Shown: positions 16,295-63,221 of the stretch, in pieces
Layout of the letters: each line of letters opens with the position of its first letter
Position numbering within the stretch: the first letter of the stretch is position 1
NCBI GenBank assembly: GCA_019914995.1
Contig: CM034142.1
Coordinates: 5,971,031-6,035,030 of the forward strand
Direction of reading: 5' to 3'
Origin: Acanthochlamys bracteata
Lineage: Eukaryota > Streptophyta > Magnoliopsida > Pandanales > Velloziaceae
Length of the DNA stretch: 64,000 nt
The notes under the pieces: model-generated
The model's database searches: none
The model's input: only the letters and a program-made list of their open reading frames with translations
What the model was told of the DNA's origin: nothing
Translations under genes and position numbers: made by a program

Positions 16295-16332
<38 letters not shown>

Positions 16333-32000: not shown

Positions 32001-32367
32001 GTACTTTACATGTATCAATGGGCTAATGCAAAATTTTCATGGTTGTTAAGAGTGGAATAGTTACGGTAGCAAGAACAACGACAACAATCAAGCATCATCC
32101 TACTTGCATGGTTGGCTGCGATGTGCACTGTTCTGCATAATATCCTCATCCGGCTAATAAAAATACATAATTTTCTTAAGTCTTTGAGATGTAACCCTAA
32201 TAGTTCCCAGAATGAGATAATTATTTGAAATTATGACAGCAATTTCAGTCTTGTACCTGCAAGATAGCAGGACTATTTTGAGCCTCTGCAGCTGCAGCAA
32301 CTGCTTGAGCACCTTCAATATTGTAAACATTGAATGCACCAACAGCATACCCACCCTTCTCTGCATT
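29083..32367 (-). other. Domain segment 4: class II (zinc) aldolase (exons 36-42)
   Basis: Exons: 32367-32257, 31340-31266, 30678-30613, 30468-30280, 30192-30082, 29636-29556 and 29265-29083. The domain resembles tagatose/fructose-bisphosphate aldolases of the KbaY/GatY/FbaA type. Visible motifs are [28 protein letters not shown] (catalytic Asp and a zinc His), [22 protein letters not shown] (zinc His), LVLHGASGL (zinc His, phosphate loop) and [12 protein letters not shown]. It ends FGSSGKAW then TAG. It should cleave or condense a phosphorylated ketose-type substrate with DHAP. In this fusion it may act on the product of the upstream kinase domain, which is inference. Confidence 0.95.
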
Positions 32368-35300
32368 CTTTAATTCAAAAAGGTCTTTAGCAAAATGTTT
32401 GAACAGAAGTTCCTTTTTGTAGAGCAACATAAAGCTGATAGCATTGATAGGGGCTTACAAGAAGAAGATCTTTTGTGGAGCACCTAGATGGTATAACCCA
32501 ATTTTTCACAACTGTTGAAAGAGCATTGTTATCTCCAACATTACCTAAAAGAAAAAACAATGCGTAAAGCCAAACTCTCAGCTAAATGATCTTGTTCTGA
32601 ATGATAAAACTGTTTCAAGCTTTCATACTACCTGGGAAGACAATATAAGGAACTCCAGGATGTCTGCTTTCTGGACCTAGCTGCCACAAGGGAACACCAG
32701 CTAGTGCTTGACCAACAACTAAGGCACGACGAGCCTCTAATGCTTTTGTAGCCATATCTGAAGATGTAATACCACCCTAAAACAGTCAAACAATTAAGTT
32801 TTCATGTTAGGTCTTCATTTCTACTTGTTACTTTTTTCGCTAGAGAATCTGGCTTTCAAGTATCATGAAATATTATGAAAAGTTGATTAAAAAGGAGTTG
32901 ATAAGATTTTTAGCTTCTAATAAAATAATGCTAGATTTCTAACATATCATGTCATTTGTGCTGCTCTTGTGATTCTGTACAGAATTTCTAAATGCAGATC
33001 ATGTCTTGAAATGGTATTGAAAACTATGGTTATTGTTAAGTACGGTGTCTAAGATGAGCCTACTTTGAAACTATTTTATATAGGAGACTTCTTGAGTTTG
33101 AAAACCAAAGCTAAGCCAAGGAATAAAGTCATCATGTGAAGGGGGCTCTTGTGTCTGGGATGTGGCTCTTGATACGGGGACTTACTATTATGTAATAACT
33201 ATATGTGCTGAATGGGTTTAAATACCAAGATACAACAGTGTCCTTACATTATGAGTACTTTTTATTATTGTATTGGATTCCCATTTCCTCAAATTCAAAT
33301 ATCTGAATGACAAGCACATTACATTATAATTGTTTTTTGTTATCATCATAGGAGAATCATGGATCATGTCCATTTCCTAGGTGAGAATAAAATGCTCAAC
33401 TTCATAACAAACTGACAACAGCCTCATGTAAGAGATAAATAAACAAAACATGTTAGGAGATTTTATTACTCATGAGGTGGATAAACAAAGAAGATATCAC
33501 GTCATATTATTTGATACCTTAGCAAGAATATAACAAGGCCGTACAGTAATTTGTCTAACAATGTCCACCAAGCCAGAACTGACTTTATAATTTATTTCTA
33601 AACTCTCTGATGGTGCTGCAAAAGAAACAAAGTGTAACATGCTTCTGTCAGAAATTGTATCTAGTGATTTATACAGCACTTCCCTTCTCAAATCTATTTA
33701 TGATAATCCAGTTTGCTTTGTTAGATATTAGATTTAAGTAAATATTTATTTTCAAATAATAGAAGTATAGTTCAGCAACTTTCAAGAAGAACAACCTCTA
33801 TTCATAAATCTAATCTCCCAGCACAAAAAGGTATTAGATCCCAAATTTCTAATAGCAGGCAAATCAATTGACTCGGATCAATACAATCAACTTGACAGAA
33901 GATGATACCGTATATCATGAAGACCGCTCCAAGGCTCACTTTCTCATTTTGATGCTTAGCATTTGGCTATCCAAATTACCAATATCCATGCACATTAGTG
34001 CATCAGTTAAATGTATCTCGTAATAAACCATCCATCAAACAGTCAAATCCAACAACATTTATTCATTCATAGTATAGATACGAGGCCCAGACAAACTTTC
34101 AGCAAAGCAGCTCTTAAAATGATTTTCACAGGGAACATGGTAGTACTTGAGCAAGTAGACACGCAAATATTTAGGGCGCGTTTACCTACCACCCAAACTC
34201 CACATTTTTCAAACTCACTTTTAATATAAAATAAACAAATAATTTAAAATAATATTTCTATAAAAAATGTTTTTCAAAATTCAATTTTAAAACTTACTAT
34301 TAATCAAAATAAATATATAAATATATTTTTTATTAAATAGTTTTAATTGTTAATATAATTTTTTAAACTCACTTTCAAAAAAGTGAGTTTACCTCAAGGT
34401 AAACACACCCATACGCACAATACTGGTAGGTGTCTCTTGCAGGCTGTTTTACACAAGTAGATCTTAGAAAGAAAATAAGGGATGGGGAGTACATGTTCCT
34501 CTAAAGAGCTGCCGGCTAGTCATCAAAAGTGTGTCTTTCTGGGATTTTAGGCAAGCATTCACAGCTTCAACTGCACGGTTTATTTCTTCTTCTCGCTCTT
34601 CTATTGATTTCAAGGATAGCCTATCAGCAGCCACCTGCCTCAAAACATATGGGTGGGACATTAAACGTTAATGCTGAGCATAAAACTATATAGCTGCTTG
34701 ATAATAATTGGTAACCTCTGTTACTAGGACAAGTTCTCTAGTCGCAGACATTTTTAGCACTAAAAATAATATGCTAAAAGAGGCAAATATTCCAGGAACG
34801 TTTTTTTCTTTCTTCCATTTTTTCTTGCTATCCTTGTTTTTTTTTAAATTTTATGAGAAAGGATATCCATCGATCTGAAGATTACCAACTTGTTGATTCA
34901 GTTTATCCTGTTATATGAAACTAACTTCACACAGTAATAATTTGAAAAGAAGTAAAAAGAAGATTCCATGTTGAAGCAATTTTAGCATTGTTTTTCTTAT
35001 CATCGCTTGTACATAGGCACTTTATGGCGTGCAATGCAAGAATTTACCTCTATGCATTTCAACCTGTGGCCTAGCTGCAATTTTAGTTCTTCAACCTGGA
35101 AGATGCATAATAACTTCACGTCAACATATGCAGTTTTTGAAGTATACCAGATCAAGATTCTAGAAGAAGCATAGAATAAGACCTGCTTTGTAGTTTTTGG
35201 AACATATGAACCAACAACTATTAGACCTCCACATGCTGCTCTGCATATCCCTAGATCACTTGGAACCATGGGTGTCTTTGGCCTTATTCCAATTCTAGCA

Positions 35301-38300
35301 GATACAAAACTAGCTGCGGTCCGGCATAAAAACTTCTTCCCACTCTTTTCGGCCTGGGATATAGTAAGTGGGTGAGGTAAGAAGCATTGGATTGTAGCTA
35401 AAAAGAAGAAAACAATGCAGATGGGACTGGCTTGCCATAATCATTCCCGCTGCAAAAACAGCAATATCTGTCTCACTTGCTGCATTGATGATGCATATTG
35501 AACCCTACAGAAAAAATACATAAAGACGAAAATGTTAGTGGAGAACTTAATCGATAAACATATCATCTGAACTGCTTGGCTACGCTTTTGAATCACCCAG
35601 CGTAAGAGAGTACATTAGTTATAACTTCAGAAGAGCATACAAAGGGCCATCTAAAGGAAATGATTCTCCAGGAAAATACACATTTCCATTTTAAGATCTT
35701 ATTTTCTGCATGAGTCATGAAATAGTTTTTAAATACCTATACTTGTTAATTATGTAAAATTTTAGAGCTAAAAGGTTTTACAAATTTGAAGATCTTTTCA
35801 AGCAATGTATAGGTATTAATTTATGTGCTAAATTTCTCAAATGCTGTGAATATATTCCCTTCAAGAATGGCTTAAATCCTAAAGTTGAAAACAAGACCTA
35901 GTTTTGTCTTACTTCCAAAGATGGAACTGTTGCATATCAAAGTGGAAGAGTATCTGTATAATTTTGTCAAAGGTAGGAAAAGTCTAATCAGTTAAGTATT
36001 ATATTGGGTCGGTTGTATGTTATAATAAAGAATTCCTGGAGAACTTTGGAGCCTAATTGGTTTAAGAGTTTTGGTAATAATAGATTTTGGATTACTTATA
36101 GGTTAAATTAATTCCTAATACATAGGTCTAGTTGTAGTAGGGAGAAAGTTATGGAGACTATTGAAAGAGTTGTAAGTCTTTTCTTCCGAAATAAATAAAT
36201 GAAGTATTGAGTTCTTTTCTAAGAACTAGAAGATGCAATTCTCTTTAATTAGTCGCCGGTTTGATGTTTTTTGTTAACCTTAATTTATTGGAGGTGTAAG
36301 GTTCTCTCCAATGAGTTAGAGCTGCGATATAGGGTCTAAACTATTAGTTAGTATCAAATGTTAGGAAAAGTTATGAAATATTACATATCAAAGAGGAAGA
36401 GTATCTGTTTAATTTGTGTCAAGCATAGTTATCAGAATGGAACCAGAGATTAAACTGGTGGTCCAGCAATTAGATCACCTGGTCAATGGTTAAATCATTG
36501 GGTTGACGGTTGGACCATATATAGTAAATAATTTCTAGAAAAAGTGGTATAGACGTTAAGTTCTTACCAATTATAAGATCTATAAGAATGTAGTGACAAA
36601 TTAAACCATGCAAATAAGTCTAATTTGTTGGTTACTGGCTTCATAGCATTTTAAAAATGTTCTAGGTTCAAAGCTTATAAATTTAAATCTTTGTTAGATT
36701 AAAAAGTACCTTTCTTAGCCCGACCGATTCAATCATAATTGTTGGTTTGCTGAAAAATCGGACTAGTCAATCTAGGTTCACACCTTTGCAAATCCGATCC
36801 AATTACTGAACCGAACCAGACTTGCTCTTGGTTTTCCCGTTTACTAGTCAAACCGCTAGTGCAGTCCAAGTTAGATAACTATAATGTCAAAGTTTTGGAA
36901 TCTAATTAGTTAAGTATTACATTTAGTAGATTATGTTATAGAAGAGATGTATGGAGCAGTTTGGAGTCTTAATTGGTGTGTGGGTGGTGGTTATAGTAGG
37001 AATTGAATTTCTATCTTTATTAGGATTTTTTTTATAATTAAGTTAGTTCCTGATTACGCAAGTCTGGTTGTAGTAGCACATCTAGAAAGTTATTAAATCT
37101 ATTTAAATAGTAATAAGTCTTATTTCCAGGATCAATTAATGAAGTTTTGAATGTTTTTTTTCAAGAGGTATGGACTCTCTCTAACCAGTCAGAGGTTCAA
37201 TCAAACCTTAATCTATTAGATGTGTAGACACTCTCTGAAGATTGAAGGTGCAATACAGCCTGTAATCCTATCAGGATCCAAGTCCTCAACTAGGTTAACC
37301 TTCCACTTTACTGAAATAGCAATTAATTAACTGAATCCTTAATGGACACAATTAATCTCTAGGAGATATCTCCCTCTCTTTAAAGGATGAAGTAAGACCA
37401 CAACCAAGCTTATGACAAACTTCAAGACCAAGAAATTTGTTATACACAACCTATTTTCAGAGGTTTACCTTTTTTAAGCTACAAAGATATTGACAAACAG
37501 CATTTGGTCCTCTTGTGCGCAATAGATCAATAGAAATTGATGAAACATCATGAGCTGCAACCCTTCCTTTTGTTTTCTCTTCCACCCACTGCCAATAGAA
37601 TTTTGTGGAAAAAGGTTAAGTCTAGACAAATCATGCTCTAAAACATACATATGAAGTCGCACCTCTCGGAGATTAGAAGATTTATAGCCAAATGCATCGT
37701 CTTTTGCAAACTCTGTTTCCCCAGCAGGAACAAGCCTAGAAAAGAACAAAAACTCAAATTAGAAGGTCAGCCAGCAGTATTCTGCTTGATATCCATACAA
37801 GAAAATAAGCACTCACCTATTAGAGTCCGCAACATAATGGATATCATTAATTGTGTAACGTCCACCCTGTAGGAAGAAAGGGCATATAATCCATGCATCC
37901 ATTTCACCTAAAACTGAAACAGCTGCATCTGCTTCCTACAAATGTAAATTTAGTGTCAAGGAGACACACATAGAAGCTGCTAACAGTCACAGGATAAAAG
38001 AAATAAATATGCATTGAGACTTACCTCTGGAAAATGACCACGGAGGGTTGAGTCGCCTCTTAGAACTACTGTGTAACTAATGCCTTCAACTTGCTTAGAT
38101 GCATTTTCTAAGTTTACACATATATCCTTGGTCAATAAAGAAGCCTGCAATTTATTGAATCAATAACTAGGATTTCTCAAATAATGAAGAAATCAGGGTA
38201 TATTTCACTACTACTAATCCCTATGAGTTATGATTCTACCCACACACCTAAATTTGACTTAACTGCATAAGATTATTATCTTCAATTTAAGCCAAGTGCA

Positions 38301-41300
38301 CCTAACCCCAATTTGTTTCTGTATCAATTAAACCCCTTAGGCTTGTATATTACCAAGACCCTCCCATTTGCTTCTCATGGCACTACAAAATCTGAAATTG
38401 ACAACTTGACATATTTAACATTTGCTCGGAGCCAGCTACTGGATAGTTCACAAACATGATTCTGATAAAGATATAACAGAAGGGTCCATCACGATTCGTA
38501 AACCTTTCCACTGAAACTAAAGTACTAACTCAGACAGACAAAGTTGAAGCTCTGTATAGCTTCAAATTTGATGGTCATGTACCTTTTCAGAACTCAGTGA
38601 TCTAGAGTTCGTGAGAATAAAGAAGCAAGTTGGGTGTTTACTAAACTGCTTGACAAGTGTCTCAATATTCCTGTGCATTAAGAAAATACAAGGTTTAAGA
38701 ATTCACAAAAGTAGTGTATAGCACAATTTGATTTTGGCATGTTTATTTTAAGATAATTTCACAGACGGAATTGCAATTTGCAAGGGAATAATTAAAATAC
38801 CTAATTAAAAGTTCAAAATCACACTTGGAAAATATTGAAATTTACCATTCCATCAGCACTTCTATGTCATGTACAGTTTGGGTACCGGTGGGATCATCGT
38901 CTAGAACCACTAAAACTTTGGAACTACTTGCACCCTCCTGTATTTGTAGGGTATCTATCGGATTCTCAGGCCATTCAGGTGCCAAGGATTTTAAAACATC
39001 TTCTTTATTAAGGAAAGATGCTTTTCCTTCGACTTTAACACCAGTAAGTGTCTCATACACCTGCAAAGACATAACTATCACCTACACAGAAGAAGATATA
39101 TACAAACTTGAATCCTATCATGAAATTATAACAATCACTTCGCAAAGCTTGTATATCTAGGAAAATTATGTAATGTGGAATAACTATGAACATAACATCA
39201 AACTTCAGTATCAACCCCCCACCGAGACAAGAAATACCTTAATACACTGTAATTTATAATATCAAGAAATTTGGGGATGAGGTTAGGTTCCTAGAATAGC
39301 GTTAAAACTTGAAAGTGCCTAACAGAGAACACAACTTAATCCAATTTCTTCATTTTATGTGCTTAAAGGTTAGCATATGATGTTCATGTTTTTTAAAGAA
39401 AGTTTCAGTAGAAGCATGATGAGGTATTTACTAGGAAAGGTTTCTAAGGTTTAAATGGCTTGATAAGTGATTAGATATTTAGTAGGGAATTGACATTAAC
39501 ACAGACTGAGAGGTTAATATGATGAAAAAACACAAATTGTTCTGATATTTACTAAATCTAGGTTTAAATGGCTTGATAAGTGATTAGAATATCTTTTTTT
39601 GGAATGCCTAGTGTGAGTAGATGAAGTAATAGCTAAAATTGTATGAGGAACTGAAGAAGTAAAAAAAAAAAAAAAGGAAAAAGAATGCGTGCCTATTTAC
39701 TTAAATTTCCATCATCCTAGAAGAATGTATTCAAGGAAACAGGGACAGAAGATGATGAAGATACGATTGGATTATATTTGGATTTTTAAAGATTTGGTAA
39801 CTGTAATAATTCCCTCAGTTAGCTGCATATTTATAAGAATTGTTTTAGTGGATTATAGTCTTTGCTGAAGACCTAATAGCCAGGTTCAAAGCTTCCGGGG
39901 GCAAGCCTGCATGCTACCCAACGGGTTAAGTATGGTAGAAGAAATGTATACAAGACTTTATTATTGTATTATGAAGTTTTCTACTGTTTGACGAAAAGAG
40001 TAATTGTGCAGGATGGAGGTTGGCGTTAGCAAGATTACAGCACCATAGGTTTCCAGTACAAAATTATCATACGATACAAGAAATGGAGCATTACTCTATT
40101 TATCAGAAATATAAGTTGTATGCTGAACTTGCCGACATTTGACTTGTTCTGACATCGTGTTCATATTCTAGATTATACTTTTTATTGTTTGCTCAAGAGA
40201 TGTTACAGCTATTTATGACAATATCCTTGACAGTATTGGCTGAAGCATTTTCTAGATTTCAATAAAGTATAGCATTCTTTCCAGATTATGAGAGATGGTA
40301 AAGGTGTCAAGATTATGCTGACAAATGCCAGTAATATAGGTAAAGGTCAGAAATTCTAGTACAGCATAGTAATACCTTAACAACAGCCGCATCATCATAC
40401 CTACCCCAACCAGAAGCTGAACCTGCTCAACCAAAGTTGATGGATCACATAAACAACATAGAATTGTCATGTTCATCTCAATGTCTATCCATACCAAAAC
40501 AGATTTGGAATAAGATACAGATATATGGAAAGTGACAGCAAAAAGACTATAATATAATTTCAAAAGCAGTAGCCTAAGAAGTTGAAGCAGAAGACTCGTC
40601 GAACCATGTTAACAATAAAATAAAGACAAAATACCCCTTTTAAATGCAGGTTTCTGAATGTAAGATATGAACATTTACGTACAGCAGAAATATGCATATA
40701 AACTTATTAAGATTTAAACTGAAAGTAGAAAATATGCATTAGTGCTTTATACCACCTGAAATGAACAACTGGTGTGCAGCACTAGCAATATGTAGAGGTA
40801 ACTTGAGATTAAATCCTTCGCTGGATACAATACCCTGCAAGAATGTACAGAAATAGAAGAAGGAAATGACATGAACTGGGTAGTCCATCAGCAACTATCT
40901 TGATGGAGGAAAGAGGTGGGGGTGTAAACATACAAGATCCTTCACAAAGATATCAATAGCAGAATATGGAGTGTAATCGTTGTCTAGCATGTGGGGAACA
41001 CGATTACCAAACATCCTGTTCAGAGTTGATAATGAGATGTTAGAAATTTGGTAAACTTAGAAAAAGTACAATTAACTGAAACCAGGTACTATTGCTAATA
41101 TACACAGCCCTAGCAGCGGCTACTTCAACCATCCAACCAAATTAAACTCCCTCACAAGATGTGTATTCAGTAGTATGACAGCAGAAATTCATAGCTTCAT
41201 AAGGATCCTACAAACTAGTCTCCTACTCAACAATGTCCAGCTCAAACAATTCAGTAGTGTATAACAAGTACAAAAATCTCTAAAGGCAAGATGTACGCCT

Positions 41301-44300
41301 TCATACAGTTGCTAAAAGAACATTCATGCAGTAGTTGTTAGACAAAGGCCACTCTGTTCTCATTTATTTCCAAAACTTTTACACTCTTAACGAAACAACA
41401 AAAGCTTCTTTCCCAAAATCTTTTTTTTTTAATATGAAGCAAGAAATTCACCCTTTCCACACATGAAGACAATATAGGATATGTCTTCTAATTTTTGTTT
41501 ATAGTGAAGCAAATTTTATTCTTGTAGTATAGTCTAGCTAATGCAGATACTTCAAATATATTGCGACATCACAAATCTATACAACCTTCATTAGGAGAAC
41601 ATTGTAAGCTTGAAGTAATATATTTTAAATGACTTGAGAAATATCTATAGTTTAAGTAATTGTGATCTCGAAAGAATTAATCACAGATTTAAGGAATACC
41701 TCATTCTTTTTAAGTTTAAACGGTCTCTCAGGTGTTAAGTGGATAGCCTATCAGGTTTGAGAACAAAAAGCACATCATGTTAGTAGGAGCATGACTGACC
41801 AGGAATATCCAGTTTCATGCTTGATGACTTCAAATAGCATTTTATTGTTTAGACCCAATCGTGCACCAAATGCCATTGCTTCAGCTGCTGCAGCTATATG
41901 AACTCCCGCAAGCAATTGATTGACCATCTTCACAGCACTGAAACCGGAATAAGTGCATATAGCCATGAAGAAGGTCAAGTTATAAAATTTGCATGTTGCT
42001 TGCAGTCCAGTATGCTTAGCAGAAATATGAAAAGCTCTCAGAAAACATCACATTGATACCTTGCTGCTCCACAACCACCTTTAATTATATAGAGCTTCTC
42101 ACTCAAAGCTGAAATTAATCGAGTTTAAGAAGTCATTAGATCTAATCAGAAATCATTTGCTTCATGTCCCATACATGAATGTTCGATATTAGGCAATACC
42201 TACCAGAGAGTACTGATCCAGCACTTGCAAGAGATTCATCTGAGCCAGAAGCCATAATCTACATGAAATAAAATTCCAGTTTAGTATACCATTATTACTA
42301 AAAGCATCTCCTAGGGCAATAAGATGATAGTTGACTTCAATTTATATTCACAGAGTATCGTACTGTCAGTGTTCCATCTGCTGCTCGTTTGACACCACCA
42401 GACACTGGAGCATCCACTAACTTCAAGCCTCTTGTTTCATCTGGCAGAGGAAGCAAATACTCAATATTAAAAAAATTTACTAACTTGTGTTTGGCAATCA
42501 AGAGGTGAAAAATAATGTTTACAATTTCTATTCAATAGTTAATAATAGACTCAAAACATTACAAGTCAAATCTACGCTTTTAAAGTCAAAAGAGCATTAG
42601 CCACAGAACAAAAGAAAGAAAGAAAAATTTGGGAAATGTCACCAAAACAAACTCCTATGTACCAAACAAAATCAAACCAAAAGCTAAGAGAACTTCCAAA
42701 CCTCTAAACCTTTTCTCCAGGCGAGTAATGAACCCAGGGGAAACTGTAGATGAAAGAATAATAGATGCTCCAGCAGGAAGAACTACATAAAGCAGAGATA
42801 TTTTAGCAGAGACAATGGTCATTACTAAAAAGAGAACTTGTTCAAGTATAGAAGTTACCCGGCACACATCCTGAATCTCCATAGAGAGCATTTTCAGCTT
42901 GAGATTCATTTGCAACCATAATTACTAGAACATCAACATCTGTAAGAAAATAGATCATCAGGACAGAGAATTGTACATATGCATGAACCTTGTTCTTGTA
43001 GAATCACTTGTTTAACATTGGATGTTCAATATTTTCTTCTATAGGCTTTTGAATCAGATTACAGAACACCAAATAGCAGAAGAATTCATATAACCACCTA
43101 ACCATAAGGTCATTTTAGAGAAAGGGAAAGCATAAATCCGAATGCCTTAGTCTACTTATCAGAGTCGTGGTAGGTATCAATCTATCTATTCTGCATGCCT
43201 GCTTATTATTGCATATGTCAGAGCCATAAAACAAGAAAACTATAGAAACCATATGCATCCATTACCTCATTACAGCAAGAAATTGGATAGATCAACGAGG
43301 ATTTTAAAGAACATTTGACGTGGTCAGTTTCAGGTTGTTTTGGACCAAAGTCAGAGTCTAGTGGCTCCATTTCAGCTTGAGCTCTGTCCATTATGCATCT
43401 TAAGTGTCTTTCATTAAAAACTCTAAGAGAACAGAAACTATCATATATCATACACACATATCTAAGAAAATGCCAATAACAGGTATATCTTTCAGCTTAC
43501 ATTTCATAATTCTGCCAAAATTAAAGGCATACAGCTAAATTTGGCAATAGGAACCTTAAAAGGAATACAAGAAGCATATGAAACACAGTTTTTGTCAACT
43601 TATGTGAAAGTAAGTTCATATTACCTCTAGATACCTCTTCAGGGGTGGAAGCCACAGCACCTCCTATATGAGCAAACCTAGACAAAGTGGGTTTATACAC
43701 CTGAGCAAGAGCAAGAATTTAGTCAGCCAACATCCTTACTTTTCAAGAAGTTGTAAAAATTCAGTTGCCATACACTGAACTTGCAGTAATTTTCCAGAGA
43801 TAGCTTGGTATATTTCATGATTTTAGCATACAATTTCGATCATACAATTACTGAAGTATATAATAGTTTGGTCTATGCAAGTATGCTTTGGAGTTCTTTA
43901 GCACTATTTTCCATAAACAGTTGTATACTCTCGCGCATTACTTATAAAAATATAATAATAGTCTAGGAAAATGTACAAAAATAGAACATGTTGCCAAGGA
44001 ATTGCAAAAAACAGCAATGAGAAACTACTTAGATTGAAATGGATTGGATGATATAACTTTCTTTATCATGTTCAAACAGATGAAATCAACTTGGCTGACA
44101 TTATTAGTATAGATACTTGGAAGTGCTAATCTGAGATATGAATAGAAGGATCATGGGGCTTTTACATCAAAAGCATTAACGGTAAAGTTTGATTTCAGAA
44201 GATGTGCTGCCATTCCGAAACCCATAGCACCTAGACCAACAAAACCAATCTTCTTTACTGGAACAGATTTTCTAGCAAGTTCATCTGCCAGATCACCAGG

Positions 44301-47300
44301 GTTATAGGACAGCTGATTAGCAGCATCTCTCATGCTGACACCATAGTTCTGATCCCAAACCTGAGAAAAAGTCATCTGTAAGTACTGTCAAACCTCAAAG
44401 CAAGATATAATTTCGACTTAGTTAATTGCATGCTAATTACTGTTCCAACACGTATAGTGCCCAGTCTAGCCAACAAATACAATCAAGGATTTAAACTTAA
44501 CTGTAGGAGCACCAGAATCAGCTCCGCATTTGTATGAAGATCCTGAAACAAGTGCCATATGAGTTAGCTATCCACAGATCGAGAAAATTAGGATCTGACC
44601 TAGAAAGGAATATTGCCTGTTACCATTAATCAATTGCTGATATGCAACAGCAAGAAGTGGAAGAGGGAATGTAACTGATTTTGCGACATCCATGACAAGC
44701 CCCTCATTAAAAAAAACAATTTTAAAAGAAAAACAGGTAAAAAAGGTAAGTAAGATGCAGAAACAAGTTATAAGCTAACAGACATTAGCACTGTTATTGC
44801 TAGATTCACCAGGAATTTTACAGTAACATAAGAAGTACACCAACACAAATAGTAATGAATGCTTACGAGCAACAAAAGAGTTAGCAGTCAACTACCATCA
44901 CAATCGCAATATGTGGCAAAGTGGCAAGCTACTCTGGCTGGGATCCCCTATCTAACAACAAAACTATACCAAGATTTTAATTCTGAAATGTACCACATTT
45001 TTCAAACTGTGTGTTGTGCATGAAAGCTGTAGTCAAACAAGATATATCTACCATGGTGAGTAGCTAAGGATGTCAAGCATCACCTAATAAAGATATTAAA
45101 GGCAGAAATGACCATCCCCTATAACGGAAGGCTGCATTTAGGCATCAGCAAAGATACAAAGCCAAGGTGATAGACATTGTAGCATGAGAGATGGTGAACC
45201 ATGTACTTAATCAACAAGATCCTTTTGGTATTGTTATCTCTGTTTCCAAATGTCAAAAGAAATTTTGTTGACCACCATCATTTCAAGAATAGACTGATAT
45301 CCATATCCTAAATCTTAAGTTTCTCTTTAATATGATTTTCCACCTAACAACTGTCGGCTTCCTCTATGACAATGGAGTCCTCTCTTTTCATTTTGCTTAC
45401 CTTAATGTCACATAGTACAAGCAGAAGTCATATGTGATCTACAGTAAAAGTATACAACACTAGAGAGAGACAAAGAAAGCGTTAAATACATAAATTCAGA
45501 GCCTAAAGAAAATCTCAATAAGTATTGAGAAACCTGGGATTAAAAGTGAAGCAACAATTTTGAGTTCCACTAGCAAGTATGCCAACTATGAATATGATGT
45601 GGTTAGAGCTAAGTGTTATAAATATAATTATGTTCATTATATAACATCTTATATATAAAAGAGACTAGGAATAATATGCACTTTGGATTGTACATATGGT
45701 ATATTAATCGCTGTAATATCAATCTCATTGACTTACCAATTTTTCTACCAGTAAATCTACAATAATTGACAGAGCTTGGTCGCCTCTCAACAATCTGGGG
45801 GCTGCATCAACAAACATCCTGCATGTGTTTAAATTGGTTTAGAACTCAAAGACAGACTGAGTGCAGCCTAAGAATTCTATTCTACGACGTGGGTCTATCA
45901 TTTGGCCTTTATATCCTTTGTATCACTGTTCTACTATTTTTATGTCCTATGTCTAGTTTAGCTGACTTATAAATGTTTCTACTCAACAGGCGAAGGACTC
46001 ACTGCTTCCTAATTGTACCCCTAATTGATCTCATCTAATGCGATAGGAAAGCTGTACAATTACCTGGGACTTTGCTTGTAATAAAGTTATGTAGTTTCGT
46101 TGAACTGAGGAGCTTGACCTTCAGTAGTAATAATTATAATTCCTAATATTGTTTGTGTGGCAAAGTCAATTCTTATTATATATAATGACTAGTCATTTCT
46201 TATTCATGTGTTAATAAAGGGACACTTAGTTTCACAAGGCTACCCAAGTAGTAGTAGAAGAGCCCAAAAGGCATACCAGCCCTATAAGAACTCTTCCAGC
46301 TGAGTTTCAATCATGTGACAGATTCATGAATTCCAACAGTCCAACTGGGAAGGAAATTTCATGTACAACACAAGTTTCCTTAGTTTGATAGTTTTATTTC
46401 TTCTTATGCCAAAGCTTTTCCTTCCTATCCTTTGGTGAAGTTTTTAGCAAGAAAGAAAAGAATAGTAAGTTTCACAGGCAATCACCTTGAGCTTCCAGCT
46501 GCATTTGAAATGATGTCATAGAGGATTAATGGATGAATGTCAGCACGAACGCCCAGATACATTGCCTCAATAGCAGCAACTACATGAATGCCCTCAAGTA
46601 GTCCATTAACCATTCTAACTTTGCTGCATAAGGAAGATAGAGAGTAATATGATAATATCTCTCTACAGACAAAGCAAAAATTTACAAATACTGATTGTAG
46701 TTGCAGCCAAAACAAGATTCTTCGCCCAAGGTTCAATCCTAGTTTTGATGATATCAAACATAGAGTGATTAAGTGTAGTAGGGAGTTTGGGAGAAAAGAT
46801 AAACCACACACACTTCCGCTCATCCACTTGTGCTTGCAAATGCCCATGCAAACTCAGATACCATGAGTGCTTATGTATTAAACTGCTGATGTACTGGTTA
46901 AGAAAAAAGAATAAGGTACCTTCCAGCACCAATATCCCCTTCAAAAATGTAAACCTTCTCACAGATTCCTGTTGGCATGCGTAACATCAAATAAGAAACC
47001 TGAATAGACAAAGAGAAGGATAAAGATGTAATTATCCATGCAAGCCTACAGATATGGATCTAACCATGCAGGACAGCTTCTGCCTTCTGTAGTGCCTCCT
47101 GCCTCCCAGACGTTATAGCCTGCGCATCCATAATTGATCACAATTTAAGAAAAAGTGTCACCAAAACATATAGGCCAACTAGCTCTTTTTTGTTAATTAT
47201 CATTTGAAGAGCTATGAACTACTAATGTAAATGCCGTAGGCTTACAATAAGTTTCCCCTGCAGTTCCTCCGCTAGTCCTCTGCAAAAGTGGGCATCGATT

Positions 47301-50300
47301 ACAGTTACATCCTTGGACCACTCTGCAATTACATGATTGGATCTACCTTGAGCATAATCTAGGGAGAGCAAAAGTTACACTACCATAGACTAAAATAATC
47401 ACAAAAAACACCTAGAATATGGAAGGTTGAGATAAGATTAACAATAACTTGATAGCGATCTACTCTTTAAGGACAACAACATAATATCTTTCCAAGGACA
47501 TGACCACTGAAAGAAGTCTATCTTGGTTAATTAACTTTATCATGAATACATAAATTTCTTTCAAGTTGGTATGTCTCTGCATCAATCGTTATTAAAGTAA
47601 AGCCGCCAAGACAGATGATGTTGCCAATGCTGTTCTTAATTAATACTTTTAGAAGAACCAGTAGTAGGCCATCAAACTAAAATTTGCAGTACTGGTCTTT
47701 ACATCTACTAAACTTTGCCAGGCTACTTCCGAATGGGTTACAAAGGATATCTCTAAGTCAATGTCACTATATAATGACACGCTACTTTTTTCAAAAAAAA
47801 AAAAAGAAAAAAAAAAAAAGAGAAACATGGATGACCATTAAAGAGGTCCAAAAGTATGCATTGTTTAGAGGCATCATCAGGTAACACATGCTGTTTCCAA
47901 GATACTCAAGCGTACTTTAGGTTCAAAGCATCAAGAACCAAGCAGAGTATTGCAGAACTAATTGTTATGGAGCAGCTTTGTACATGTTGTTTTCGTAAAT
48001 TTTTAATTCTTGTAAGTCTTCTAAACAACTTTTATAGCAATACTTCTAAGACTTAGACTGCAACACACCGAGGTTGAGCTGAAGTTATCTGAATCCGTCA
48101 TCCATGAAGACATACACTTTAGATCCATGATGTATTTGCCAAAACAACGTGAGTTTACCATAATGGTCAATAGGTCAATACATATCAAGTTCTATTGTCC
48201 AATGAGGATGAACATTACCAGTTTAATCATTAGTTATAGAATAACAGCATATATTTGCCATTGTTGAACCTATCTTCAAGCCTAGAATCATCATGTTGAA
48301 TCCACACGGACCTTCAATTAAGGAGTTCTAAAGTAAATTAATATAATCATTTGTTTCCATATATGGAAACAACTTAAAAAATGTACAAACCCGATTAAGT
48401 TTGAGACAATTTGGTAATTTTGGCTGTTTCCAACCAACTGTTGACATTCTCCAAATTGGACACCAAAACTTCATCAACTTGCCTTAGTTAAGATAATAAA
48501 GTTTTTAACATTATTTGAGAAATATTAATTTGGTCACCCAGTTTCTGATTGGAATTACTCAAATAGACATTACTTCCGGGAACGTTTTTTCGCAGAGCAA
48601 ACTTTCCTCAAGTGGGCTATAGAATGCACTTCCTGTGCATGACGTCTATCTAAATATTCAAAACTTAAAACATTGGAAGTGTAGGCGTTATTGTTTTTTC
48701 AACTGACTGCATGCATGCATGCAAGTAAGCTTCAGGCATTGTTTTGCCTCGAAAAGAGTACGTACGATGGTGCTAACGTCCACCGCATTTAAGCCTTCAT
48801 TTGAATTAGAATTTGAAATTTGCCGTCAAGATTTCGCACATAGCAAGGCAGACGCCGCGAATCCTGTATTATAAAAGAGAAAGAAGAGAATTAGGGAAGG
48901 ATGTACCCACTTTGACTCTCTCCTCTCAGATAGGGTGACAACAATATTTGGTTCAAGCCTTAAACAATGCAAGCGGAGACTATCAAGGGATCTCCAGCGA
49001 GCTCAAGCTTTAGACATTCAAGGTAAGGCCTAACTGACTTGTCAAGTTTCTTCTTGTATTAGGATATAAGAGGAAGTTGACATACAGGGTTTCAAATATG
49101 AAGCTTAATAAGAATCCATAGAACCATAATCTTCTAGTTCTTCGAAGAATTATGATGGATTGTTTCCTGGCCATAAATGGTGTTACAAAGGAGAAATCAA
49201 GGTAGTGAAGGAAGCAATTCTTAATGCCGGATAAATTTGAGTTGACTCTCCTGAAAAGAAGAATAGGATAGACACCTTTTTTACCCTAGGTTGTGCTCCC
49301 CTTAGGTGTGAACAATTTAGGCTGAAGCTGCCTGTTCACCCTTTTCTATCCCGTCTATTCACCTAAATTGCTATCAAGGTTTTTGGAAGGTAAGCTGTAT
49401 CAAAGTTGGCATCCCACTAAAGTTACACATCTTTTGCTCTCTGCAGGCCTAAATTGCTATCAAGGCAAAACACCAACCTAGCTATATATAACTTATTACA
49501 GATCTTACCTTGATTACAACGGCATAGCAAATGTAAACCCTCATTCTGTTACTCTAATAAAGATTTGTTTTTTATTAGGCACAATAATTGGTTTTAATGC
49601 ACCATACGAGGAGCAAAGAATTTGTAAGCACAATATCTTCAAACTTGGTTGTGAGCAGAGTAGCATCATTTAGAACAGTAAATCCTTATACAAAAAACCT
49701 ATTGAATCTCTCCTAAAAATGATTTTGGAAGCAACATCTGCTGTCTTGCTATGTGGTTATACTTTTATAGGGCCTAATCACTGAGGATACTAAATCTATA
49801 TTGACCCTTCTGCATTCTCTTTGTTCGGTAGCTATGAAAGGTCCTTCCTTACTGGACGGTTTACCGATCAAGTTGGAGAAAGACTCCAACCTTCATGGTG
49901 TAAAAAAAATAATTATCAAAGAAGAGATGGATGTCCTCCAATCCAATGGGGGCTGCTCGTAAGACGTTGGCATAAAAAAATAAAAATAAAAAATAAAAAA
50001 ACACACACTCCTACTCTCTCTTGCATTTTGCCATCCTCCGGCGTCTCTACCAAGGGTGTCATGGAGAAAGCCGCTTCTCTTTCTAAATTATCCAAGGGGT
50101 GACAAAGAAGGAACAACCCTAGGCAACCTAAATACGACAAGAAAATTAGCACTTAGATCCAGTTTATTAGTTGACTAGAAGGCTTTATAACTTATTACTC
50201 CAATGGAAACCTAAACAAGGCTTTCAACATGCTATGTAGGCTTTCCCTCTCCTGATGCTCTCCAATTTGCACCAATACCAAAATTCTTTTGTTTTTTGTT

Positions 50301-53300
50301 AGGCCTTATTTAGTGCAACACATCTTGCTAGGTGTTTCGAGGATCTTCTACTCATATGCATTAAAACTCGCAATGAAATGATGGAAAGCTACTCAAAGCA
50401 GATGTAGATGTCTAGCATTTGATGCAAGAGAATATGATTTTAGCTATGGGGAACTGAACAAGTAACTACAATGGAAGCAAAAGGTTGAGACATACAACTA
50501 TGTCCATAAGAAGCCCTTAAAGTGATTGAGATGACAACGAAAGAAGAGGAGATGTGCTTCGCTAAGTTAGCCATACACTGACACAACTTTTCATTCCTAA
50601 GGTGATAAATGTGAGGGTTATTGTTGTCGAGTGACTCAAGAAGGCAAAGAGGGCAAGTAGGCTGAAGAAAAAGCTAAAGAAGAGGCAATGCTGAAAGCAG
50701 CAACCAGAAGAGTGTGTAGGACGCTAGAAATTGCAATAGCAAGCCTAGCAAAGTAGGATGGAGACATGGAGAGAGATGGTAAATCCACTGTGCAACTTCA
50801 TGTTTATAATATTATCAATCTTAGATGCTAGATGGTAAGTCCATTTAGCAAAACGTACTTTTATTCCTTTTGATATTTGTTTTCCTTTTTGCATATGTAC
50901 TATTCCAAGTGTATCAATAATCTCTCTTCATTCATACACCAGCATCAATAGATGATAAATGTTGTATCAAGGAAAAAATGCCTTTGTTTTAACTTATATA
51001 CATTATGTAGTGAAAAAGAATGCATGGTGGAGCCTTCTTGGCTATATGCATATTGCTATTACAACTCCAAGGCTATGTGGAGCCAATAATAGCTTGAGGA
51101 GACTAATGGGGTGAAAAAACTTTAACCATAAAGGAAGATGGATATCCATTGTCTCCTCATCAACTTTAACTAGCAATCACATCAATTGCCAAGGATCAAG
51201 GCCACATTGCTATGCTTTTTACATTGATAAATAATTTTGATAGTGTAGTTGAAACATTATACAATAATAGCAAGCACAAATATGCACTCAGAACTTCTAG
51301 CGGACATGGTTTGCTTCAAGAAAGTAGCAGCCGGATACCAGGAGATGAGAAATGAAGCTCTCACTATGTCTTATTACTGAGTATAGTCATATTGTTTTCT
51401 TCATCGCTAAATTTAATAAGCATTCTCTCCGTTGTACAAAGAATCAAACAACAATCGCTTACAATAATTGCTTGCTTGCCTATATCGAGAAAGATGTACT
51501 TGATAGCATTAGCAAAAAATAGCTACAAGTAATAAATTTCTCATCATACTATCAACAAGCCTAGAGCCTTTACTGAAAAAATGTAAGAAGATACAACAGT
51601 TATTACTTACTAAGCATATTAGCATCTAGCCGTAAAAAAGGAATTGAGCAGATCAGTCGACGAAAAAGAATTTCACTGATGAGCATAGCATACCTAATTC
51701 ATGTGACCTGCATGGTCTTTATTTCAAAGCATTACGGTTTCTAGCTTCCAATAAATGCAGGCTGCTATTATTAATTAAGAAAATTTATATGGTTTTAAGG
51801 TAAATATAACCAAGTACTTTCAAAATCAACGTCTCTTTTAAAGTAAAGCTCGATATAAAAAAGCTTCATGTTCACAATATATATCAAGTATTGGAACTTT
51901 CATACTTCTTATCCACTTTCTGATAGACAATATTTATTTGAACCCATCCTATATTTGTCTCTCACATAGTTCTCAAAAACCCGATTTAAATCTTAAAATT
52001 ACGAATTTACGTCAACCAAATTATCATATTTCATAATAAAATCACATTTTTGGTAAATCGTTGTAACAATCGTGATTTATATAGTAAATCGGTAAAATCG
52101 TGATTTTATAGAGATTTTATATGATTTCAGAAATTTGTGAAACTTGGAGGGATTTCTAATAAATTTTGAAGGGGTTTTTCGTAAAACTTTTATCTAAAAT
52201 TTTAAAGATATTAAAAAAAATTAAAGTTATTGAGAAAACTTTAACAAATATTATCTACATTTTAAAGGTATTAAAAGAACGTTTACAAAAAAATTTACCG
52301 GTAGATAAAATCTTACGATCCTATTTAAAATTCTAATTTTACAATCTTACTTAAATAAAACGATCCTACTTAAAATCCCTATTTTGACAACCTTGGTCTC
52401 TCATATTTTCATGAAGAGAGAATTTCGTAAAGCGCAATCAATAAAGCAGGCTTCTCTACAAAGAATATGGATGCATACTTGATATAGATGCTAGGTTCTC
52501 AAAGTTGTGTTGCCAAATTTGGAATTTATCATGAGTTTGACTTTCTCAAAACTGGCTTAAACCATCAAGAAAAAATAACATGAAGCTTTGTATACCTTTG
52601 AGGTGCTTCACTAGAACAGAGAGTTGAGTTGGTGTTAACAAGGACCGCAAAATAATTACCGCATCTTCAACCAAACCTGCTACGAAATGATAAAGTGTGC
52701 TACTTCGAACAAATAAATAAATAAATATGTACGCAAAATAAAAATAAATGTGTATACATATACATACATATATATAGGAAGAAAATATGTGCACATTTCT
52801 ACCTTATGTGTGCATTGGCCCACATTGGCACATATAAGTTGCGTAAAAAACTCAAAATTCATTTCCACCGTTAGATATTAAGAACTATGAGTTTTGAACA
52901 CAGCCGATAAAATTACATCACAATCGGATCAAGGATTGATCTCCATCCCGCCTCTTAATCAAAATGACAGTAAAAGAAAAAATCTTATGTTCTGTAAATA
53001 TTTGTCAAATTTTTTTTTTTCTATCATCTTTATCAAAATGACAGATGGTGGACGACCATGACACGATTAAGCTGAAATTTTATCAAACGTGTTCACGACT
53101 CATAACTCTTCATATCCAACGGTGTAGAATGAATTTTGATCTACTTATATGGGTCAACGTGCGCCAATATACACCTAAGATACACACACACACACACCAA
53201 CACACACACACACATACATACATATAAACATACAAAATGTATGCACTCCTACACTCCCAATGCACTCCCTAGCTATTTTTGGAGGGGGATACATCCAAAT

Positions 53301-56300
53301 CTAATTATCACCGTTAGATATGAAGAACTATGAGTTGAAAACAAGCTAACAAATTTTAATTCAATCGGACCTCAATTCGACCTTCATCTAGTCTTTTGAT
53401 CAAGTTGATATATATAGTAGAAAATGACAGAAATGATAATATATATATATATATTTTGAAATTTTCTTACTTTTAGTTATATATATATAACTGAAAGTAA
53501 GAAAACTTCAAAAAATATATATTTTATTATTTCTGTCATTTTGATCAAGTAACTAGATGGAGGTCGATTTGTAATCCGATTGAGATGAAATTTTGTGAGT
53601 AAGTTTCTAACTCGTAGTTCTTAATATCCAACGGTGGAGATTGGATTTGAAGCTTACCCTAGCCATAAACTAGAGAGAGAGCGCCCCTATCCCTATATAT
53701 ATATATTACAAAAGAAGAAGGCACGGTAAAGAAAAAGTGCAAACATGGACCTTTGGCAAGACTGTTTTCTCCAAAAAATATGTCATGTATTTTTCCTGTA
53801 GAAATCAGCACAAATAGAGTCGATGCACCTGTTTAAAAAAAAATTTAAGCTAAGAATAGTTATTGACCACAATCATTTGGAAATACTTCAATTATAAAAA
53901 ATTTGATAAAGTTGTCGAACAAGATCACAAAACTAAATTCTTACAAGAATGTTCTATCATTTTAAATTTCTTATAAGATTGTTATATTATATTAAAAATA
54001 AAGCATTTCAATGTGACATAAATGTAACTGATCAAAGAAGAATATTGCGTTTAGTTGAGATACAAAATTTCATAGGAGAATATATCTCAAGCATTCAAGC
54101 TTCATATACTTCTTTTGACTAATAACAAAGAACTATTTTAGATTGACCAAGGTACTTCTCTCAATAGCGGAGCTCTTCGTACAAAACTTAGATTGAAGAT
54201 AAAAATATTGTTCGAGCATACATCTCAAGCATTCGAGCCCGATATTTCTTTTAATTAACAAAAAGGGCATTTATACATCAAATGGATTTGAAGTTTTAGA
54301 GATACTCTTTCTCAACACCAATAAAGTTCTTTTTACGGATTACAAAGTTCTTCTTGGGCTCTAAATCAATGATACACCTTCTCAAAAAAAAAAAATGAAA
54401 AGTAACAAAATAACTAGTAAACTATAATTCGAAAATAGCTAATGCATAAATCTCCCCCTCCAATGAGACTTACAATGCTTATTTATAGCTAAACAAGGAG
54501 TTCTTCTACAAAAGAACTCCTATGCCTAATAAAGTTCCACTTGCAAGGAACTTCTAAACTTAAAGGACTCTTAGCTTTAACTGTGCTATCCACAGTTAGA
54601 CTCCTTCAGAAACTCTAACTCAGCAACACTTCTAAACATCTAATACTAGTTGCTAAATGATTCTTAGCAACACTAATGCATCTAAATCAGAGGTGGTCGA
54701 TGCTTCTCCAAATTGTTAGGATTGGCAAACCGACAAGTCCCGCAATTGGGATTTCGTTGTCTCTTCCTAAGTAAATGCCCTTCTGCTCGCCCCATAATTT
54801 CTCGCCCAAAGGCATCACTCCCTTTCCTTGAGATTCACCTCGCCCCTGGTCAGATTCGGCAGAGCTTCAATGATGGCTCTTCCAATCAAATTTTGTGATA
54901 AGAGCTTAGCATCCTTAAGCTGGGATACATGAAAAATTGGATGAATTTTGGATGTTGAAGGTAGTGCCCGGTGGGTATGCATCGTCCAATGACCGAGCAC
55001 GAGTACGGCCCATGGTAGCGATACCTTAGCTTATGGTTCCTTCGTTCAGCTATTGAGGATTGACGATAAGGCTGTAATCTGAGCAGTAATTGGTCCCCTG
55101 GTTGAAAATATTTCTCCCTTCTGTGACTATCCGCCAGCTGTTTCATCCTATTTTGAGCTCGCACAAGATGGAAGCGCAGCTCCTTAAGGATGTCATCCCG
55201 TTTGCAAGAATCGCCGTCTAATTCATCCAGGGGCGAGATCCTACAGTGCCAAGCAACTAATGCGGTGGTGGTCTCATCAGAATCGCTTCAAAGGGCGTTG
55301 TCCCATCGGGCCGAGTGAGGCCGGTGTTGTACGAATACTCGCCGGTCTGGGGATTGATCCACTTGCGGGGGATGGTCTCCACGGCAACAGAAATACGATT
55401 CCAACCCTCTATTCACTACTTCGCTTTTTCCGTCCGTCTGAGGATGATAAGCCGTGCTCAGATGGAGTGAGGTGCCTTGAAAGCGATGCAATTCCTTCCA
55501 AAAGGTGCTGAGAAACACGGGATCTCTGTCGGACACAATAGAGGTGGGACAACCATGCAGGCGAACCACTTCCTTGGCAAAAATGTTAGCTATGTCTACT
55601 GCAGTGTAAGGATGTTTAAGGGCAATAAAATGAGCGTACTTGGATAGGCGATCCACCACTACGAAGATCATATCCTTCCCTCCCGATGGTGGTAAACCCT
55701 CTATGAAATCCATTGAAATATCCGACCATATTTGATCGGGTATTGGTAAAGGTTGCAAGAGCCCTGCTGGTCGAAGGGACTCGGTCTTGGCAAGAGCACA
55801 AGCAACACAAGCTGCAATATAGTGTTGAATGTCTTTAGACATACCAGGCCAGTAAAAATTTTGTGCTAACCTTTTGAAGGTGCGAAACTGTCCCCGTGTC
55901 CCCCTTGAAAGCGTAATTATGTGCCTCAAACAAAGAGTTGTGTGCGCAAGGAACGCTATTAGGTACCCATAGCTTCGCTTGCATGCTGCCCCATCCACCA
56001 CCTTTCACGGATGTGAGCCATTGTCCGCCGCCTTACATAGCTCTGTTAGAGAATGATCTTCCCGCGAGCCTTCAGAAAATCATCCCGCAATAAGTACTCG
56101 GAGTGTTGAAACAATGCAAGGAAGCCTCTGGGTTCGCGTGAAAGTGCATCCGCCACTACGTTTTGAGCTCCCGAGCGGTAAACAATTTGATAATCAAATC
56201 AAGGAGTTTAACCAACCATCTGTGGCTTTGGTCGGGGTTGATGGCGTTGTTCCAAGAGGTACTTCAAACTCAAATGATCCGTCTTGATAATGAATCGCCA

Positions 56301-59300
56301 AGCAAGTATGGTTTCCATTTTTGAATCGCTACAACGAGCCATAAGTTCCTTCTTATAAGTCGATTTAGCGAGGGCGGTGGAAGATAATGCCATCTTGAAA
56401 AATGCTATAGGCTTATTACATTGTGTGAGGACAAAGACCAAGTCCCTTGTTTGAAGCATCTGTTTTACGGTAAATATTGCATTGAAATCGGGAGAAGCTA
56501 AAAAAAAAGCTTCATCATCGCTTTCTTCAAAGTTTCAAAAGCTCTGTTGAATCAATTCCATTGAAATGACTCCTTTTTGAAGAATGCGCCAAAGGAGCGA
56601 CTATCATTCCATAATTCTTTGAATCTCCGATAATAACCGGTGAGGCCCAAGAATCCCCTAAGTTCGATGGCCGATTGGGCCTTAATCGCCAACTGTCACG
56701 GCCTTAATCTTCATAGGATCCGCCGCAATGCCATCTTTGGAAACAATATGACCAAGGTACTTTAGTTCTTGCACCCAAAAACGACACTTTGCCAAGTTAG
56801 CATATAGTTGCTCCTTCTTTAAGACCGAAAATACCGTGGCTAGGTGATTCAAATGGTCTTGCCAAGTCTCCTCAGATGAGAATATCGCCAAAGAAAACTA
56901 ATACAAATTTACGTAAGATAGGGTCGAAAAACCTCGCTCATGAGGGATTGAAAGGTCACGAGCATTGGTTAAGCCAAGGGCATGACCAAAAATTCATAGT
57001 GCCCATCATGCTTTCTAAAAAGTCGTCTTGTGGACATCTTCCTTCTTCACGCGAACTGGTGATAACAGGACTTGAGGTCCAAATTTTTAGAAAAGAAACA
57101 AGCACCATGTAACTCATCTAATAGTTCATCAATTATGGGTATCTAAACTTATCTCGACGGTGATCTCGTTGAGTGCTTTATAATCAACACAAAACGCCAA
57201 GATCCATCCTTCTTTTAACCAAAGAAAACCGAGAGGAAAATGTTAAGTCGCTTGGTTGGATGATCCTTGTGATAGCATATCCGATCTGACCTTTCTATCT
57301 CAAATTTTTTGGATATGGGGATAACGGTAGGGTCTTACATTACCGGTGCGGCTCGGGCAAGAATGGAATGACATGATCGTGGGGAACGTTGAGGAGGCAT
57401 CCCCAAAACGGTTTCAAGATTGATGTGTATTGTTCTATAAGATTTTGTAGCTCACTTGGCAAACAAGATCCTCTTCCTTTTGGGCAGTCTCGTCGGGTGC
57501 CTCAGATGCCATAAGTCTTATAGAACAGAGGGAAGATTTAGAGCTAAGAACATGAAACTTCGATACTCCTGCTTCTCGGAAACCTTGTAGGGTGCACTCT
57601 TGGCCATTCAATGTGAACCTCATTTGCGACTGGCGCCAATTGCTCACCACTTCCCCTAAGCCCTCTAACCATTGTATTCCTAGGACTAAGTCCATCCCCC
57701 CTAGAGGAAAAGGGTAGACATCCACCATTAATTCCACTCTTCCAATGTTTAGTGGAACTTGCTTGCATATGACATCAACAGAGTGAGGTCTCCCATCCGC
57801 AAGCTCTACCTTAAGGGCCCTTACGGGTGAAGAGCTTAACCTCAAGTGCTTCACAAGGCGATCTGATATAAAGTTATGGGTGCTTCCTGAATCGATTAAA
57901 ATAAAGACCTCTTGTTTCTTAATTTTTCCTAAGAACACGTAATGTCCGTGGGTCCGGTCAAGCCACACATCGATCGAGAGATAACGTGGCATCCTCCACG
58001 CTTGCATCTTGTTCTTCCTCGCTATCTTCTCCTTCCAATTCGTTAGCTTCGCCACCGCAATTGCATATAGACGAAGTTGTGCACTTTATGGCCGTGCACA
58101 TACCTATCATCACAAAGAGAAACATAGGCCCTTTGATCTCCTTGAGTTGATCTCGCCATCGACAAATTTGAAGGTTTGGATCGAGTATTTAGTCTTTGGA
58201 CTAATTGTTACTTGTGTGTTGGATGCATGATGCCCCAAGGTCTACGTGTAACTTGAAGATGGCCGAATTGCTGAGTTGTGTGTGTCTTCCCGCACGTGGA
58301 TGGATGACTCTTTGAATTCTTGTGTTCAAACATCTTGGCAACATATATGCCATTTGTAACTCTTTAGGTCTGGCTGCCATCACTTCCATCGCGAGCTTCT
58401 TTGAAAGTCCTCCACAAAACCTCCCCACCAAGTCTTGCTCCGAAGTAGAGGGTAGCTGCGTCCGAAGGTCTTCGAAAGCAACCAAATACTCTCCTAGTGA
58501 TCCAGTTTGACGCAACTGTTGCAAAGAGAAACTAGGATTTTCAAAGCAAAGAGGGCCGAACCTCATCGATGAAGGCTTCACGAAATTCTTCCCAAGAGTG
58601 TTAGGGTTTGTCTCTTTCAAGCTTTGGTACCATCTATTAGCCGTTGAAAATACATTACAGCAATTCTCACTCGATCCCAAAGTGGTGTGTTGTAAAATTT
58701 GAAATATTTTTCCGCCGAGTATAACCACTCGTTTGGCCCATTACCATCAAAATAAAGAAACTTGTCTCTCCTTAAAAGGTTGAGTATAGGTGTCATGTGA
58801 TTGTAGTGCTGGATGTGTTGGGTTTTGAGATACTTGAACTCTATGGTATGAATTCGAGTGGTGGTATTTTTCTGTTCCTGACAAGGGTTGGTTTGTATGG
58901 CTTAATGGAGTTTGCTGCCAATAGGATTCGCATTGGTCATTTATGCGAAAGGCATTATTTGATCTGGATGATGTAGGTGCAAATTGTATTTGTTGCTGGT
59001 TTGTTTGGAGCCATTGCTGGTCAGTATTGTTTTGTATAGGTGGTACTTGGTGTGGAATTGTGGGTATATTGGTGGACTGTAGTGTAGAAACAGTGGGGTA
59101 ATTTGGTTGGATGTCTGAGGAAGTCCTCTCTTGAAGCATGTTCTGCTCAAGGGGATTCACTTGGGTTGTTGGTTTCCCATGTGGTACTTGTTCCTTGCTG
59201 GTTTGGTTAGCAAGAACAGCCAGAGTGAGCCTCTCTATGTTGGATGACATGCGTCTTATTTCTTCCAACACAAGGTTCTCTCTTAGCGTTATTGCTGTTT

Positions 59301-63194: not shown

Positions 63195-63221
63195 TTCCAT
63201 ACCTCTCTCTTTCTCTCTCAA

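Follow-up and report, generated by a model that had tools for sequence, protein, structure and literature searches.

The stretch of DNA considered here (the window) comprises 64,000 nucleotides (nt) of Acanthochlamys bracteata, assembly GCA_019914995.1, contig CM034142.1, positions 5,971,031 to 6,035,030. On its minus strand lies a gene of the LTD (L-threonate metabolizing domains) type, in which two tandem dehydrogenase repeats are interrupted by introns at corresponding places. As a whole, including the duplication and the roles of the two repeats, the locus is very probably best explained as the plant LTD gene, acting in L-threonate catabolism after ascorbate breakdown. That an intron-bearing unit related to bacterial L-threonate dehydrogenase (LtnD) was duplicated in tandem within the gene, with the join lying in exon 12, is almost certain.

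The gene was assembled as 42 exons, and the resulting frame contains no internal stops. Its main parts are listed here, one per line.

LTD-type gene, 63200..29083, minus strand: 42 exons, 1376 amino acids, start codon ATG at 63200, last base of the stop codon at 29083 (exon assembly, splice sites, one open frame and Pfam domains).
Repeat 1 (LtnD1), 44166..63200, minus strand: exons 1-11 and the first part of exon 12 (exon model; best NCBIfam model, L-threonate dehydrogenase).
Repeat 2 (LtnD2), 38846..44360, minus strand: second part of exon 12 to the first part of exon 23 (exon model; best NCBIfam model, L-threonate dehydrogenase).
Exons 23-42, 29083..39060, minus strand: closing part of repeat 2, then an OtnK-like kinase and a class II aldolase resembling OtnC (exon assembly and Pfam).

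The Pfam domains PF03446 and PF14833 (NAD_binding_2 and NAD_binding_11) occur twice in this order, and are followed by PF07005 (SBD_N, residues 657-894), PF17042 (NBD_C, 919-1085) and PF01116 (F_bP_aldolase), the last corresponding to the OtnC-like class II aldolase at residues 1099-1374. This is the plant LTD order of dehydrogenase 1, dehydrogenase 2, kinase and aldolase. Exons 23-42 were placed with the aid of a by-eye draft drawn from the same exons, and their edges carry no independent check. In the 42-exon model, the intron that follows exon 29 begins with a GC donor in place of GT, at position 35435 of the window. A newly described ascorbate-degradation protein, the LTD of Arabidopsis (AT1G18270), likewise consists of two LtnD-like units, an SBD_N/NBD_C kinase and an F_bP_aldolase domain (Yamamoto et al. 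2025, PMC12540250).

A preliminary description of the window had reported that seven consecutive exons of the two repeats share their lengths exactly, and had placed the repeats at 40376..47322. That interval spans exons 5-22, although repeat 1 as a whole begins at 63200. The exons in question are the following.

Repeat 1, exons 2-4, block 52596..60451, minus strand: 60379-60451 (73 nt), 53751-53828 (78 nt) and 52596-52676 (81 nt); splice model, returned by the bacterial profile in 6/6 parameter sets.
Repeat 2, exons 13-15, block 42702..43700, minus strand: 43625-43700 (76 nt), 42859-42939 (81 nt) and 42702-42782 (81 nt); splice model, bacterial profile 6/6.
Repeat 1, exons 5-10, block 44624..47322, minus strand: 47246-47322 (77 nt), 47065-47119 (55 nt), 46920-46968 (49 nt), 46486-46623 (138 nt), 45737-45818 (82 nt) and 44624-44702 (79 nt); splice model.
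Repeat 2, exons 16-21, block 40756..42440, minus strand: 42364-42440 (77 nt), 42204-42258 (55 nt), 42060-42108 (49 nt), 41800-41937 (138 nt), 40934-41015 (82 nt) and 40756-40834 (79 nt); splice model, bacterial profile 6/6.
Exon 11, 3' end uncertain, minus strand: 44502-44542 (41 nt) or 44481-44542 (62 nt); both donors are weak and they score about equally, with 62 nt in 6/6 profile sets.
Exon 12, 44166..44360, minus strand: tail of repeat 1 joined to the Rossmann start of repeat 2; start at 44360 preferred, 44348 by the profile.
Exon 22, acceptor uncertain, minus strand: 40376-40422 (47 nt, preferred) or 40376-40416 (41 nt); splice scores and profile runs.

Six consecutive exon pairs (5-10 and 16-21) are equal in both length and phase, with GT..AG edges and an open frame throughout, and the near matches claimed for exons 2-4 and 13-15 have the lengths given. 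Because the first exon listing had been filtered by the lengths in the preliminary description, an independent test was added. This was a spliced alignment against a profile built from 76 bacterial LtnD proteins and including neither repeat; it was applied to each repeat singly and, under six parameter sets, to the two in tandem. The bacterial set was drawn from the best 80 of at least 532 relatives among the pattern matches listed; the motif was present in the reading frames of 76 of these 80 loci, the other four being from Xenorhabdus. The profile recovered 18 of the 22 model exons exactly in four parameter sets and 19 in the other two. Its edges coincided with those of the model for exons 2-4, 6-10 and 13-22 (exon 22 taken as 47 nt) in all six sets, and for exon 1 the donor was the same, the only difference lying at the start of the profile. 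An artefact, in which repeat 1 had simply been read to fit repeat 2, is therefore very improbable as the source of the match.

Such an artefact may nevertheless hold for the seventh pair, since exons 11 and 22 each have two possible edges. Exon 11 was never returned as 41 nt by the profile, which gave 62 nt together with an exon 12 start at 44348 in every set. From exon 11 into the frame of repeat 2 there are 32 donor-acceptor pairs, and the two ranked highest by splice score make the exon 62 nt (1.5) or 41 nt (0.9) long and share the acceptor at 44360, which itself scores 3.55 against -0.1 for 44348. The two acceptors of exon 22 lie six bases apart, with 40422 (47 nt) scoring 2.4 and 40416 (41 nt) scoring -0.8; the 47-nt form has the bacterial-consensus spacing and was returned in 6/6 sets. 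When its ends were taken shorter and exon 22 as 41 nt, repeat 2 scored 331.8 bits against NF043037, the NCBIfam model of L-threonate dehydrogenase, and this rose to 345 bits with the 47-nt exon and the tail. Six exact exon pairs therefore stand, while the seventh (41 = 41) is not established, because exon 11 could have a length of either 41 or 62 nt and the better reading of exon 22 gives 47 nt.

Exon 5 is the other place where the artefact finds some footing, as the bacterial profile alone does not fix it. It was placed at 50051-50127 in four of the six sets and at 47246-47322 in two, each 77 nt long, and the two candidates lie 0.4 bits apart under the profile. Scored against exon 16 of repeat 2, a yardstick drawn from the other repeat, the candidate at 47246-47322 reaches 21 and that at 50051-50127 reaches -27. 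The gap holds 48 open, phase-compatible candidates of 60-99 nt, four of them of 77 nt, so the 77-nt length by itself is weak evidence.

In the exon model each repeat contains 11 introns. When the repeats are aligned with sequences from bacteria and the PDB, eight pairs fall in the same column and phase. The remaining three pairs lie two columns apart, in phase and beside gaps, such that all 11 correspond in order and phase within two residues, the eleventh on the assumption of a 41-nt exon 11 and the 44360 acceptor. Across 200,000 random intron placements, the maximum was three exact and six near matches. Were intron insertion restricted to about 56 sites, eight or more matches would still have P ~1.6e-5. 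The claim that the introns predate an internal tandem duplication is thus most likely correct. The alternative, a fusion of two LtnD genes of separate acquisition whose matching introns arose in parallel at identical sites, fares poorly against these numbers and has only a slim chance of being true.

Within exon 12 the tail of repeat 1 runs into the beginning of repeat 2 uninterrupted by an intron, which places the join of the duplication inside an exon. Intron lengths differ between the repeats (for example, 2641 and 465 nt, or 6550 and 685 nt), and the 6550-nt intron contains a transposon. This is a long terminal repeat (LTR) retrotransposon within intron 2, at 54370-59881, with LTRs at 54370-54820 and 59426-59881 that are 92.8% alike; an integrase zinc-binding domain match lies inside it at 55291-56004 on the minus strand.

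Shared intron places would say nothing about this duplication if they were ancient across the beta-hydroxyacid dehydrogenase family. Family controls were taken from the same genome, the 195.5 Mb assembly containing the window, by the same method. Ten loci were compared with three PDB relatives. Three were modelled, namely an HIBADH-like gene (L105) and two genes that we take to be GLYR-like (L104 and L107). Two partial matches (L106 and L109) were left out, those of L001 and L006 lie within a single open frame, and for L102, L103 and L108 no match passed the threshold. Two introns of the HIBADH-like gene and one intron of one GLYR-like gene lie within two columns of those of the repeats, and in phase, as ancient places might predict. 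Against this, not one exact position is common to either repeat and any of the three genes modelled, and an ancient origin of the whole pattern is accordingly a remote prospect. Corresponding intron positions, a protein identity between the repeats of only 30%, and the lack of exact matches in these three relatives together argue that the intron-bearing unit was probably duplicated inside the gene.

NF043037 is the best NCBIfam model for each repeat (345 bits for repeat 2 and 189.3 bits for repeat 1), and mean identity to the 76 bacterial proteins is 47.0% for repeat 2 and 32.4% for repeat 1. The strong protein divergence that had been noted between the repeats is borne out at 30.2% identity (89/295). 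The bacterial protein, in contrast, is a single unit: BLAST with both repeats found one LtnD unit in each of the 76 frames. A protein tree built with 23 of these proteins and 3g0o places both repeats inside the LtnD clade with support of 100/99.

Several points weigh against an internal duplication of an LtnD unit. The free tree groups repeat 1 with bacterial proteins, with weak support (80/60), and does not make the repeats sisters, as two separate acquisitions would have it; the approximately unbiased (AU) test rejects neither the sister pair (p 0.40) nor the pairing of repeat 1 with bacteria (p 0.64). The repeat phylogeny called for in the preliminary description thus supplies the clade but not the pairing within it. 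Three of the 11 intron pairs are offset by two columns next to gaps, the last of them hanging on unsure edges, and exon 5 of repeat 1 is left unfixed as described above. Repeat 2 falls 5 bits under the NF043037 cut-off of 350, and repeat 1 is also under it. Finally, the tails of the repeats (exons 12 and 23) have no significant similarity (p 0.24), nor does the part past the bacterial end (p 0.47).

The tree was set aside as proof of the duplication, being unresolved because the branch of repeat 1 is too long (4.6, compared with 1.24 for repeat 2). The tails were likewise set aside as a guide to the order in which the duplication and the kinase fusion took place, their similarity not being significant.

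The simplest reading of the intron record is the following. A bacterial LtnD-type dehydrogenase would have acquired about eleven spliceosomal introns within the plant lineage, after which the whole intron-bearing unit would have been copied in tandem within the gene, the join being located in the present exon 12. From then on, intron places would have held while intron lengths and protein sequence drifted. As to age, the Arabidopsis study reports LTD, with an identical domain structure, in all land plant genomes examined (e.g., Marchantia, Physcomitrium, Selaginella and rice), and its absence from five green algae, a set that does not contain streptophyte algae (PMC12540250). Since the land plants of that study are reported to carry both repeats, the duplication should be older than the spread of land plants.

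A protein search of the genome, in which only the best candidates were scored, found no second intact LTD copy; it returned the exons of the window, two single-frame relatives on contig C13 and a decayed piece on contig C9. The latter is a relative of LTD exons 1-3 with stops (L110:8400-8504, L101:4659-4760 and L101:5832-5973), whose matching DNA, introns included, is about 64-78% alike to the window. The matching C9 site lacks the retrotransposon of intron 2, and tblastn in 29.7 kb of C9 gave no convincing further LTD exon.

The preliminary description had called the locus an unusually clean record of exon-block duplication. The record is clean, and old, yet it represents a well-known kind of event, given that the Exonize survey reports full-exon duplications in at least 4% of vertebrate genes (PMC12343006). 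Like those cases, LTD holds homologous units within one gene, and the same is true of the lobes of transferrin, which are thought to have been duplicated from a single-lobe form (PMC3125230), as the LTD repeats would have been from one unit. LTD differs from both in that about eleven consecutive introns are kept, in being a plant metabolic enzyme, and in a protein identity of 30%. No report of the LTD exon match was found in the open-licence literature searched, and the main text of the Arabidopsis paper does not contain the words intron, exon or duplicat, so the match is not discussed there under those words (PMC12540250).

The two repeats have decayed unevenly. Among 103 alignment columns that are at least 95% fixed in the 76 bacterial LtnD proteins, repeat 2 keeps 90 and repeat 1 keeps 48; 47 are lost in repeat 1 alone, five in repeat 2 alone and eight in both. 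Repeat 2 thus largely retains the residues fixed in bacterial LtnD, and repeat 1 does not. The substitutions in repeat 1 include GLDDLS for GLGAMG, DAHFCRG for DAPVSGG, KVRMVN for KVKIIN and VEKLG for VKDLG, by which two glycines of GxGxxG, the lysine of GAGSKVK (K to R), and residues of DAPVSGG and KDLG have been lost. We take these segments to serve in NAD binding and to hold the catalytic lysine.

Judged from these residues and from the longer tree branch of repeat 1, repeat 2 would probably be the working L-threonate dehydrogenase, handing its product to the chain's own kinase and aldolase domains, while repeat 1 would no longer be catalytic and would stay as a fixed, built-in partner subunit of repeat 2. 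With about even confidence, repeat 1 may further be regarded as a pseudoenzyme retained in that capacity since early land plants. It is less likely, though conceivable, that both repeats are catalytic and that repeat 1 has a different substrate or cofactor. Repeat 1 does match both Pfam domains, has an open frame and keeps the GAG and asparagine of GAGSKVRMVN, but the losses just listed speak against its activity.

Work in Arabidopsis bears on this question. Loss of LTD in knockouts abolishes detectable L-threonate dehydrogenase activity, and recombinant LtnD1 carrying a trigger-factor tag was inactive, for which misfolding, inactivation or the tag were offered as reasons (Yamamoto et al., PMC12540250). 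A non-catalytic repeat 1 would account for the inactivity of the isolated LtnD1. Two considerations temper this reading: the assay is confounded by the tag, by its authors' own account, and the roles assigned above to the altered segments are those of the family at large. An identity range of 26.2-38.7% given in the same paper is compatible with the same residue losses in Arabidopsis LtnD1. Its main text lacks the words motif, pseudo, active site and lysine, and decay of the first unit is not discussed there under those words (PMC12540250).

Other features of the window and genome lie outside the LTD gene. On the plus strand, frames at 11868-18175 include a cysteine-rich one (11868-12233) and a PIP5K match (16658-18172), while the frame at 12458-13222 matched no Pfam family; together they probably belong to a FAB1-type lipid kinase. 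A further plus-strand reading frame, at 25142-25654, has linker-histone and AT-hook matches. Elsewhere in the genome, the short contig C315 (17.8 kb) bears a partial HIBADH-like match, one stretch having an internal stop, at L109:3063-3657; this might represent a pseudogene or assembled DNA of foreign origin.

For the LTD family, the intron record points to a single intron-bearing unit behind both dehydrogenases, which the protein tree could not show. What is new and useful as a lead is that the two units have decayed unevenly. Their unequal loss of fixed residues offers a simple, testable reason for the inactivity of the first unit and directs biochemists to the second; if it is correct, the published negative assay of LtnD1 would have tested the dead half of the pair, and LtnD2 would carry the activity.

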